NCBI GenBank assembly: GCA_017398045.1
Contig: JAFQHI010000004.1
Span: 1 to 64,000 of the forward strand
Direction of reading: 5' to 3'
Length of the DNA stretch: 64,000 bases
Source: Alistipes sp.
GTDB taxonomy: Bacteria; Bacteroidota; Bacteroidia; Bacteroidales; Rikenellaceae
Position 1 is the first letter of the stretch. Every line of letters begins with the position of its first letter. The position numbers and the translations under genes were made by a program. Below are positions 47,171 through 49,520 of the stretch, piece after piece. Under the pieces are notes generated by a model. The model was not told the DNA's origin and did not search any database. It saw only the letters and a program-made list of their open reading frames with translations.

Positions 47171-48532
47171 CTACATAATCGGCTCCAACATCTGCACCGT
47201 GCGCATAATCTCCTCATCGGAGGGGACATAATCCTGCAAATGACCGCCCAGATACTGCTCGTAGGCGTAGAGGTCGATGGTTCCGTGGCCCGACAGGTTG
47301 AAGAGAATCGTCCGCTCGCGTCCCTCGATTTTGGCACGCAACGCCTCTCGAATGGCCACCGCAATGGCGTGGGTCGATTCTGGGGCGGGGATGATGCCCT
47401 CGGTTTGGGCAAACAGCACACCGGCACGCATCGTCTCGGTCTGTGCAACCGACTGTGCCTCAATCGAACCCTCGTGCAAGAGCTGGCTGATGATGGCACC
47501 TGCACCGTGGTAACGCAAACCACCTGCATGGATGGCCGAAGGCTGGAATTCGTGGCCGAGCGTGTACATCGGAATCAGGGGCGTATAACCCGAGAAGTCG
47601 CCAATATCGTATTGGAAGACACCGCGCGTCAGTTTCGGACAACTTTCCGGCTCGACCGCAACGATGCGGGTCTTTTTACCCTCGCAGAAATTACCGCGCA
47701 GGAAGGGGAAGGCGATGCCGCCAAAGTTGCTACCGCCACCGATGCAACCAATCACCACATCGGCCTCGGCATCAGCCATCTGCATCTGCAACAACGCCTC
47801 CTCACCGGTGATGGTCTGGTGCAGCAGCACGTGGTTCATCACACTACCCAGACAGTAGCGCGTTCCGGTGGGGTCCTCCAAGGCACGCTCGACGGCCTCC
47901 GAAATGGCCAGACCAAGGCTTCCGGGCGTATGGGGGTCGGCCATGCGGGCGGCTCGTCCCGAGGGGGTCAGCGTGGTAGGCGAGGCGTAGCACTCCGCAC
48001 CCCACGTATTCATCATCAGGCGACGATAGGGCTTTTGGTCGTAGCTCACGCGCACCATAAAGACCTCGACATCGAGGCCGAAATGGTTACCGGCAAACGA
48101 AAGGGCCGAACCCCATTGACCGGCTCCGGTCTCGGTCGTCAGGCGACGAATACCCTGCTTATAGTTGTAGTAGGCCTGCGGCACGGCACTGTTCGGTTTG
48201 TGCGACCCGACGGGCGAAACGCCCTCGTTCTTAAAGAAGATTTTGGCCGGCGTATCGAGTGCCTTCTCCAGCCCCACGGCACGTACCAAGGGGGCGGGAC
48301 GCCAGATGCGGTAAATCTCCTGCACCTCCTCCGGAATCTCGATATAACGCTCCGTAGAAAGCTCCTGACGCGCCAACTCATCGGCCAGAATCACGCGCAG
48401 GTCATCTTCCGTGATTGGTTGGCGCGTTTTGGGGTTGAGGTAGGGGCGCGGACGGGTGGGCATATCGGCCACCAGGTTATACCACGCTGTCGGCATCTGG
48501 TTTTCGGGCAGGATAAATTTCTTGGTCTTCAT
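47171..48532 (-). CDS. trpB: Tryptophan synthase beta chain, TrpB2 type
   Basis: The 453-residue PLP enzyme joins indole to serine. It carries the PLP lysine in VGSHKPNSAVPQAYYN, the glycine-rich GCIGGGSNFGGIAFPF, and GAGQWGSALSFAGNHFGLDVEVFM split over family motifs. Length (about 450 versus 400) and sequence place it in the TrpB2 branch, which often acts without a TrpA partner. No other trp gene is nearby. The start at 48532 (MKTKKFILPENQMP) is set by the leader region upstream, which holds a Trp-rich leader peptide and an attenuator, so expression is probably released when charged tRNA-Trp is low. Confidence 0.95.
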   Translation of the reverse strand: MKTKKFILPENQMPTAWYNLVADMPTRPRPYLNPKTRQPITEDDLRVILADELARQELSTERYIEIPEEVQEIYRIWRPAPLVRAVGLEKALDTPAKIFFKNEGVSPVGSHKPNSAVPQAYYNYKQGIRRLTTETGAGQWGSALSFAGNHFGLDVEVFMVRVSYDQKPYRRLMMNTWGAECYASPTTLTPSGRAARMADPHTPGSLGLAISEAVERALEDPTGTRYCLGSVMNHVLLHQTITGEEALLQMQMADAEADVVIGCIGGGSNFGGIAFPFLRGNFCEGKKTRIVAVEPESCPKLTRGVFQYDIGDFSGYTPLIPMYTLGHEFQPSAIHAGGLRYHGAGAIISQLLHEGSIEAQSVAQTETMRAGVLFAQTEGIIPAPESTHAIAVAIREALRAKIEGRERTILFNLSGHGTIDLYAYEQYLGGHLQDYVPSDEEIMRTVQMLEPIM

Positions 48533-48577
48533 CACACAAAGTTTTTTAGGGGGGATGTTTCGGTTTGTTTGCTCTTC

Positions 48578-48668
48578 AAAAAAAAAGAACCGTTGCCTAC
48601 TTTTCGTAAACAACGGTGCTTGTATCGGGTCGGTTTCATACACGGCTCAATGGCCCTCATTGTTCACG
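48578..48668 (-). promoter_or_regulatory. Tryptophan attenuator (antiterminator/terminator switch)
   Basis: Two exclusive RNA pairings are visible on the minus strand. Terminator: ACCGTTGTTTAC (48617-48606) with GTAGGCAACGGT (48600-48589), 12 pairs including two G-U, loop GAAAA, then TC and nine T. Antiterminator: CGTGAACAATG (48668-48658, the last codons of the leader ORF) with CGTTGTTTACG (48615-48605), 11 pairs including two G-U. The Trp codons end at 48684, 15 bases before the antiterminator arm. A ribosome stalled there would leave that arm free; a ribosome at the stop codon would cover it. Confidence 0.82.
48589..48617 (-). terminator. Intrinsic terminator in the trpB2 leader
   Basis: A 12-bp stem with a five-base GAAAA loop and nine consecutive T (A at 48578-48586 on the plus strand). 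It lies between the leader peptide and the trpB2 start, so it can only serve as an attenuator. Confidence 0.88.
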
Positions 48669-48719
48669 AGAGAGAAGCGGACGCCACCACCAAGCCTGCA
48701 TAAAACTGTTCGAAGTCAT
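48657..48719 (-). CDS. trp leader peptide (three consecutive Trp)
   Basis: The 20-codon ORF reads MTSNSFMQAWWWRPLLSREQ with Trp at positions 10-12 (TGG TGG TGG at 48692-48684) and a TGA stop at 48659-48657. It starts 22 bases after the end of a consensus promoter -7 box, and is followed by a terminator before trpB2. Trp is the rarest amino acid, so three in a row in a 20-residue peptide upstream of a tryptophan synthase gene is strong evidence for an attenuation leader. There is no Shine-Dalgarno sequence, as usual in this phylum. An internal ATG (codon 7) would still include all three Trp codons. Confidence 0.85.
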   Translation of the reverse strand: MTSNSFMQAWWWRPLLSREQ

Positions 48720-48740
48720 CTTGCGTTTTCTTTGTTATTG

Positions 48741-48771
48741 CAAATATAGCACATCGCGGGCTAATCTGCAA
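48741..48771 (-). promoter_or_regulatory. Bacteroidetes-type promoter of trp leader/trpB2
   Basis: -7 box TATATTTG (48748-48741) and -33 TTG (48771-48769) are 20 bases apart. The predicted transcript would begin near 48737, about 17 bases before the leader ATG. Confidence 0.75.
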
Positions 48772-48815
48772 GAAAAATCTGCTCTAATTTTACGATAGAG
48801 CCGCCCTGCAACGCT

Positions 48816-49397
48816 TTAATCGTTATCCTCGACATCGTAGCCGCCATTCGGGTCGCGCTTGACGACATAGGCAAAGGTGCGGTTCCACAGAGCCAGCTCC
48901 GCCTTCAGTGCAGCCTCGAAGGTCTCGGGCGACGAGCTGTCGTAGGGTAGGGTTACGCTGTGACGCTCCACATCGGGCGTCTCCATCCAATGCACCTTGC
49001 CGTCCGACTGGTACTCCTTAAACTCCTCCATGCGGGTCACCTGCAACGTGTAGCTCGCCTTATCGTAATTGACATCGGCCTTGGGGGTCACACTGACCTG
49101 AATCGAGAAATCGGCCGGCAGGGTGGTCGCACTCATCTGCTTCACCCACTTGGTAGTGGTGAGCGTTTCGGTCACGGGGGCCACCACACCCTCGGCATTC
49201 GCCTCCTCGTAGCTGAAGCTGATGTCGGCCACCTTCAAAACATCGTCGCTCACCTCATAGGTAAAGGTCAGCTCCATCTTTTCGAAGTCATACTGCTTGC
49301 CCGCGTCGTCGGACGAATCACACGCCACGACCACGACCGTAGCCACAAGCATCACCACGCAGGCCAAAAAGGCACTTTTCCATACATTTCTTTTCAT
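48816..49397 (-). CDS. Hypothetical lipoprotein
   Basis: I do not recognise the family. The 193-residue protein has a lipoprotein signal (hydrophobic core then VVVACDSSDD, lipidated Cys near residue 26) and a beta-rich acidic body (LTFTYEVSDDVLKVADISFSY, FSIQVSVTPKADVNYD) that ends in a Tyr/Asp-rich tail. It looks like a periplasm- or surface-facing single-domain lipoprotein. It is divergent from the NigD-like lipoprotein at 49592. The start at 49397 is chosen because the signal peptide begins there (MKRNVWKSAFLACVV). Confidence 0.7.
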   Translation of the reverse strand: MKRNVWKSAFLACVVMLVATVVVVACDSSDDAGKQYDFEKMELTFTYEVSDDVLKVADISFSYEEANAEGVVAPVTETLTTTKWVKQMSATTLPADFSIQVSVTPKADVNYDKASYTLQVTRMEEFKEYQSDGKVHWMETPDVERHSVTLPYDSSSPETFEAALKAELALWNRTFAYVVKRDPNGGYDVEDND

Positions 49398-49520
49398 ACG
49401 CTGTAACAAATTAAGTATTGCAACCACTCGTTGTGCAAATATCGGGCAAAAGCAACCTCCGCGGATATGTTAATTCTACATTAAATCGGTCAAGACGGCA
49501 CATAATCCCAAAACTTTCGC

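Follow-up and report, generated by a model that had tools for sequence, protein, structure and literature searches.

Sequence evidence for a probable tRNA-Trp-sensing transcription attenuator ahead of a stand-alone trpB2 gene in Alistipes and related Rikenellaceae

On the minus strand of a 64,000-nucleotide window from Alistipes sp., a short open reading frame with three consecutive Trp codons and a T-tailed hairpin precede a gene for a tryptophan synthase beta-like protein, which raises the question of whether expression of this gene is set by tryptophan supply and, if so, by what means and for which metabolic step. In the trp attenuator of enterobacteria (Trp_leader, RF00513), Trp codons in a short ORF, a protector, an antiterminator and a terminator form a switch that is thrown by the position of the ribosome. 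The same elements, and apparently the same use of ribosome position, were noted in the present leader, which very probably attenuates transcription of a lone TrpB2 gene by way of a ribosome that responds to the level of charged tRNA-Trp. This was also the reading of a preliminary description of the sequence, and it is supported by conservation of the Trp codons and by covariation of the stems in related genomes.

The architecture of the leader was confirmed by reading of the minus strand, and the positions assigned in the preliminary description to promoter, ORF, Trp codons, terminator and antiterminator, as well as the spacing between them, proved correct (Table 1). We take the promoter-like element to be of the -33/-7 type of Bacteroidetes promoters. 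The sequence upstream of the leader ORF is A-rich and no Shine-Dalgarno sequence was seen at the leader. Fifteen bases lie between the last Trp codon and the antiterminator arm, which on base-by-base inspection forms 11 pairs, two of them G-U, with strand 3. The terminator hairpin (-16.4 kcal/mol) is followed by TC and then by nine T (48586-48578). In the minimum-energy fold of 48736-48533 (-60.1 kcal/mol, z -3.51, with none of 200 shuffles equally stable), the 3' strand of a protector helix sits just past the leader stop codon and the antiterminator arm is enclosed by this helix.

Table 1. Features of the trpB2 leader and the gene that follows it (window coordinates)
Feature	Position	Strand	Details	Basis
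Promoter-like element	48741..48771	-	TTG 48771-48769, 20 bases, -7 element TATATTTG 48748-48741	sequence reading
Leader ORF	48657..48719	-	MTSNSFMQAWWWRPLLSREQ, 20 codons, ATG 48719, stop TGA 48659-48657	
Trp codons	48692-48684	-	codons 10-12 of leader ORF	
Protector helix	48633..48706	-	48706-48687 (within leader ORF, covers Trp codons 10 and 11) paired to 48653-48633	minimum-energy fold
Antiterminator arm (strand 2)	48658..48668	-	CGUGAACAAUG, pairs with 48615-48605	
Strand 3	48605..48615	-	terminator 5' arm plus first loop base, common to antiterminator	
Intrinsic terminator	48578..48617	-	12-bp stem 48617-48606/48600-48589, 5-nt loop	
TrpB2 gene (controlled gene)	47171..48532	-	stand-alone tryptophan synthase beta-like enzyme, ATG 48532, stop codon 47173-47171	profile scores

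Conservation of the leader ORF was evident from a set of 83 distinct trpB2 upstream regions (the present one included) for which 400 nt were available, identical regions having been collapsed and shorter ones dropped. All 27 distinct leaders with a TrpB2 identity of 72-100%, again with the present one included, had an ORF of 8-45 codons with an ATG start and WWW, as did 12/21, 2/17 and 11/18 regions at 64-72%, 59-64% and 54-59% identity, respectively. No such ORF was found in 1660 dinucleotide shuffles of the upstream regions or upstream of 273 other ORFs of at least 200 aa from the same loci, two of which were preceded by WW. The nine loci of the 64-72% band without a WWW ORF (L030, L052, L055, L063, L064, L065, L067, L068 and L070) include two possible degenerate forms, i.e., L070, with WSW in place of WWW and the same antiterminator, and L055, with a terminator and an ORF with a single Trp. 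Many distant TrpB2 loci have no leader, which is a point against the attenuator reading. Of the 27 close leaders (including the present one), 26 had the promoter-like motif TAnnTTTG no more than 70 nt ahead of the leader ATG, as compared with 3.5% of mononucleotide shuffles, and in 23 of these 26 the motif preceded the ATG by 25-30 nt, a spacing that suggests a very short 5' untranslated region. The 15 bases preceding the leader ATG were 49% A on average. In five leaders of environmental Bacteroidales (L078, L084, L087, L088 and L092), two terminators or T-tracts apparently stand in tandem before trpB2.

Covariation of the RNA helices was assessed in an alignment (A1) of 39 leaders, own included, from loci with TrpB2 identity of at least 64% in which TGGTGGTGG and the terminator-arm motif were required; invariance of the Trp codons in this set therefore follows from selection on TGGTGGTGG, from which the count of 27/27 given above is free, and the nine loci without a WWW ORF were left out. 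The antiterminator helix was paired in 98.6% of 428 cells, with two-sided changes in 4 of 11 pairs and a covariation score of 0.261 as compared with 0.187 ± 0.007 in shuffles, none of 500 of which reached this score, and the terminator stem was paired in 94.5% of 451 cells, with two-sided changes in 7 of 12 pairs and a score of 0.300 as compared with 0.182 ± 0.008 (0/500), although such comparisons overstate independence since the aligned leaders are related. Covariation of the antiterminator fell to 0.034-0.075 when the helix was slid out of register, and the number of further pair types was unexceptional (12 as compared with 10.5 in shuffles, 87/500). As strand 3 is shared by the two helices, variants of it, such as GUCUGC (L024) and GUUUGCC (L072), are matched in the partner strands. 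The protector helix kept its position while its sequence changed (duplex z averaged -1.94 and was below -1.5 in 25 of 39 leaders) and was weak or absent (z above -0.6) in L003, L013, L018, L022, L023, L024, L028, L057 and L072. Terminators that an automatic finder missed or misplaced (L002, L003, L004, L006 and L058, the last without a T-tract by the rule of the finder) were plain in the alignments. Thus, both the conserved Trp codons and the compensatory changes in both stems that the preliminary description had predicted for related genomes were found, and the observation that it had named as contrary to its reading, i.e., homologous leaders without Trp codons or hairpin pairings, was not made among the close relatives.

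The relationship between the antiterminator arm and the leader reading frame varied among the 39 aligned leaders. With frame counted from the Trp codons, the 9-nt core of the arm was in frame 1 in 23 leaders, frame 2 in 14 and frame 0 in two, and in all three frames the core began 15-20 nt after the last Trp codon. The stop codon was a TGA within the arm in frame 2 leaders and a TAA at the arm in frame 0 leaders, while 22 of the frame 1 leaders read on to a stop 8-26 nt past the arm and one stopped ahead of the core. An arm that occurs in every reading frame, yet at an almost constant distance from the Trp codons, appears to be kept as RNA rather than as peptide, and this conservation provides what we regard as the strongest argument that ribosome position would act as the switch. 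It also shows that a stop codon inside the arm would not be required, with the counterpoint that a ribosome at the stop codon would not directly mask the arm in the 22 leaders whose stop codon is 8-26 nt past it.

Folding of the leader in different states, with assumed values for the edges of the ribosome, was consistent with such a switch. Thus, the antiterminator formed (-19.9 kcal/mol) when the arm was free and the 3' arm of the terminator not yet made, the terminator formed when a ribosome was placed at the stop codon, and the protector and terminator formed together when the entire leader was free. When the 3' arm was added to the state with a free antiterminator arm, the terminator fold became the better one by about 4 kcal/mol (-30.4 versus -26.6), and the switch must therefore be kinetic, with antitermination won in time. 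The same holds for the classical case of attenuation. The two exclusive structures of the preliminary description were accordingly both recovered, to which a third, the protector helix, has to be added, by which termination would be favored in the absence of a ribosome. In the proposed mechanism, a ribosome supplied with charged tRNA-Trp would pass the Trp codons and reach the stop inside the arm (or, in other species, 8-26 nt beyond it), leaving strand 3 to its 3' partner so that transcription would end before trpB2. Under a shortage of charged tRNA-Trp, a ribosome stalled at codons 10-12 would open the protector helix. The arm, which begins 15 nt further downstream, would stay accessible and could capture strand 3 ahead of synthesis of the 3' arm, with read-through by RNA polymerase into trpB2 as the result. 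Control by tRNA charging would thus hold TrpB2 off while Trp is plentiful. The features that define this class of attenuator are all present at this locus, namely a run of Trp codons in a short ORF, an intrinsic terminator, a competing antiterminator pairing and, as the next gene, one for a predicted enzyme of Trp metabolism; exposure of the arm upon stalling is what we infer from them.

Three other explanations of the leader were weighed against these results. The hairpin could merely terminate transcription of the upstream gene (48816-49427, minus strand), with the WWW ORF incidental, as a same-strand ORF does end at 48816 and intrinsic terminators are common between genes; conservation of the WWW ORF, covariation of the antiterminator and the conserved promoter-like element between the upstream ORF and the leader make this very improbable. 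It is equally hard to credit a leader that responds to any slowing of translation, or that acts through coupling of leader and trpB2 translation, rather than one specific to Trp. Slowing at other leader codons could add to the response, but the run of Trp codons was kept in 27/27 close relatives while flanking residues varied, the gene product is a Trp-making enzyme and a terminator stands ahead of trpB2 in the aligned leaders.

A leader like TnaC, in which free Trp would stall the ribosome on the nascent peptide and high Trp would be the inducer, comes to mind because TnaC is likewise a Trp-sensing leader peptide of a gene of Trp-indole metabolism. An arrest peptide is nevertheless exceedingly improbable here, as the peptide following WWW is not conserved and all three frames of the RNA are used in this region, consecutive Trp codons are the mark of tRNA sensing, and there would be little point in raising the level of a Trp-forming enzyme when Trp is high. 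Control by charged tRNA-Trp through ribosome position thus remains the preferred reading.

The identity of the controlled enzyme was indicated by profile scores. The predicted protein scored 692.1 bits against NF009057 (cut-off 366) and 582.2 bits against TIGR01415 (cut-off 518.85), which by curated cut-offs places this predicted enzyme in the TrpB2 subfamily, and 132.1 bits against the canonical trpB model TIGR00263, i.e., under the cut-off of 392.45. Its top PDB matches were named tryptophan synthase beta chain 1 and 2. The closest named relatives were metagenome-assembled genomes of Alistipes sp. and Rikenellaceae, with TrpB2 identity of up to 92%. In the 2.36-Mb draft of the genome, on which the following absences rest and which is 91.5% complete, the TrpB2 query matched only itself at E ≤ 0.001, i.e., no second TrpB (TrpB1) was detected, and neither TrpA nor indole-3-glycerol phosphate synthase (IGPS/TrpC) was found. 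In a 200-genome sample of the family, 47 other genomes of the genus had a strong TrpB2 match (E below 1e-100), only one of which (G128) had TrpA over cut-off together with IGPS, both by hand count.

Because TrpA, TrpC and TrpB1 were not detected, TrpB2 probably uses indole, a substrate that is suggested by its family, and the step controlled here is probably one of indole reuse, in which Trp would be made from serine and indole, the latter of external origin or supplied by the cell's own tryptophanase. Precedent exists in indole salvage by TrpB2 of the archaeon Thermococcus kodakarensis, as cited in PMC11085991, which also describes conversion of exogenous indole into Trp by gut bifidobacteria. 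A tryptophanase (TnaA) gene is present in the same genome (L168:223-1602, contig C15; 919.3 bits against NF053783, cut-off 750), and the occurrence of tryptophanase together with TrpB2 where TrpA, TrpC and TrpB1 were not detected points to a possible Trp-indole cycle. An exclusive link between tryptophanase and TrpB2 was considered and rejected; TIGR02617 matches, none over cut-off, were counted by hand in 30 of the 47 TrpB2 genomes of the genus and were also noted in many genomes without TrpB2.

The leader is not the first Trp leader from this phylum, as RF01692 (Bacteroid-trp; Rfam name 'Bacteroidete tryptophan peptide leader RNA') is already known and is listed in Weinberg et al. 2010 (PMC2864571). 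Leaders of both types have WWW in the leader ORF, leader codons paired with a strand that follows the ORF and a terminator next. No match to RF01692, a family with a gathering threshold of 49 bits, was found at E ≤ 0.001 in the present genome (the control, Bacteroides ihuae, matched), at E up to 5 in 48300-48900 or at E up to 10 in nine other Bacteroidales TrpB2 loci. Rfam scans at gathering thresholds detected only a tRNA in the window and no leader family there or in 20 TrpB2 loci, and matches from permissive scans of the window region and TrpB2 loci were all far under family cut-offs. Among 149 genomes of the order, scanned with stricter filters, 11 had an RF01692 match at E ≤ 0.001, seven of them over cut-off. 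The gene that follows RF01692, scored at 10 loci, was TrpB1 in seven (over the TIGR00263 cut-off), TrpE-like below cut-off in two and unnamed in one. As aligned, the RF01692 model ends within the 5' arm of the terminator.

A model built on the 39 TrpB2 leaders (R1), the E-values of which are rough, matched 10 of the 11 RF01692 loci at full length with 29-40 bits, part of which is contributed by Trp codons and terminator alone. In the present genome, the only R1 match at E ≤ 0.001 was this leader (stricter filters, 15 of 329 candidates scored), and 99 genomes of the 200-genome family sample were matched, terminator-only matches included. By hand count, a full-length match lay directly upstream of TrpB2 in the present genome and in 42 of the 47 TrpB2 genomes of the genus, 24 of these 42 matches having supplied rows of the model or being identical to one and 18 not, and G134, where match and TrpB2 are on different contigs of a split assembly, being counted among the 42. 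The five misses comprised two genomes with little or no contig upstream (G121 and G192), two with WWW (G104) or WW (G169) recognized by eye and one with neither (G089). The WW leader of G169 (L171) has a AGAACAAUG/CAUUGUUCU antiterminator, and the device thus drifts past the reach of the model. Weak matches of 18-24 bits at L162, L163 and L164, near which no Trp gene was recognized by eye, were set aside as probable chance terminators.

R1 also matched leaders ahead of TrpB1, and by hand count at least nine genomes (G009, G012, G018, G029, G032, G058, G061, G067 and G128) had a full-length match before both trpB genes. Differences between the two types of leader were evident from the partner of the segment that follows WWW. 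In 38 TrpB2 leaders (L058, without a terminator by the rule used, was excluded), this segment paired better with the 5' arm and loop of the terminator in 35 (mean z -3.09 versus -0.54), whereas in 20 TrpB1 leaders (L111-L116, L118, L152-L161 and L165-L167, with L117, L119, L120 and L121 not included) the loop and 3' arm were its better partner in 17, all but L112, L158 and L161 (mean z -1.83 versus 0.04). Three of these 20 leaders (L152, L160 and L161) are from the nine genomes with leaders of both types. The next gene passed the TIGR00263 cut-off for 19 of the 20, and that of L157, which was cut by the stretch of contig taken, scored 383.3 against 392.45. In the TrpB1 leaders, an 8-bp helix GUCGUGAG/CUCACGAC was paired in 89.9% of 159 cells (4/500 shuffles as high), with two-sided changes in 3 of 8 pairs (13/500) and a covariation score of 0.175 as compared with 0.113 ± 0.016 (2/500), which is less strong than for the TrpB2 helix. 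Because the antiterminators differ in what they capture (5' arm versus loop and 3' arm), we call the TrpB2 leader a putative diverged sister of RF01692 with a different antiterminator topology; by the family's own threshold it is not a member.

Taken together with the indole hypothesis, these differences allow a wider reading, to which we would give somewhat less than an even chance. Thus, in gut Rikenellaceae without a detected trp operon, charging of tRNA-Trp might set the direction of a Trp-indole cycle through an attenuated indole-reclaiming enzyme, in a cell whose own tryptophanase may also produce indole, while sister Trp leaders of Bacteroidales might carry mirror-image antiterminators, formed with the 5' arm at trpB2 and with the loop and 3' arm at trpB1, the RNA switch having changed the strand that it captures. 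Apart from this wider reading, the attenuator would put a stand-alone, probably salvage, enzyme under the control of tRNA sensing, a device otherwise seen at biosynthetic operons, and it would predict when these gut commensals, for whose community and host indole is a signal, remove indole. The leaders also form a natural series in which frame, captured terminator strand and location of the stop codon (-13 to +26 nt relative to the end of the arm) vary while the antiterminator RNA is kept, and which may be useful for testing the tolerance of an attenuator to change where translation starts without Shine-Dalgarno signals.

Compared with the enterobacterial trp attenuator, the TrpB2 leader differs in that its protector helix has the antiterminator arm in the loop, a lone TrpB2 gene follows and no Shine-Dalgarno sequence was seen; RF00513 gave no match in Rfam scans of the window. 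Candidate trp attenuators of Actinobacteria described in PMC1262725 include that of Corynebacterium diphtheriae trpB2A, where a leader with Trp codons and a terminator precede a gene called trpB2. That gene is in an operon with trpA, whereas the TrpB2 gene studied here (TIGR01415/NF009057) stands alone, with no detected trpA. In the open-access literature, no paper on trpB2 with Bacteroidetes was found, none joined Bacteroidetes, transcription attenuation, leader peptide and tryptophan, and no description of this TrpB2 leader was noted from titles and the beginnings of abstracts. As far as this literature goes, target, lineage spread and antiterminator variant are new, while the class of mechanism is textbook.

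Leader ORFs with WWW, mostly of the form WWWQ...CP, were also noted at 13 TrpB2 loci of Deltaproteobacteria (Syntrophaceae, Smithella and others; L090, L091, L096, L099, L100, L101, L102, L104, L105, L107, L108, L109 and L110). In 11 of the 13 the terminator contained CC(A/G)TGGGAA, accompanied in most cases by a CUUCCC antiterminator segment, a form that differs from that of the Bacteroidales leaders, and R1 scored at most 13.7 bits against ten such leaders. These leaders apparently represent an independent Trp attenuator on the same gene.
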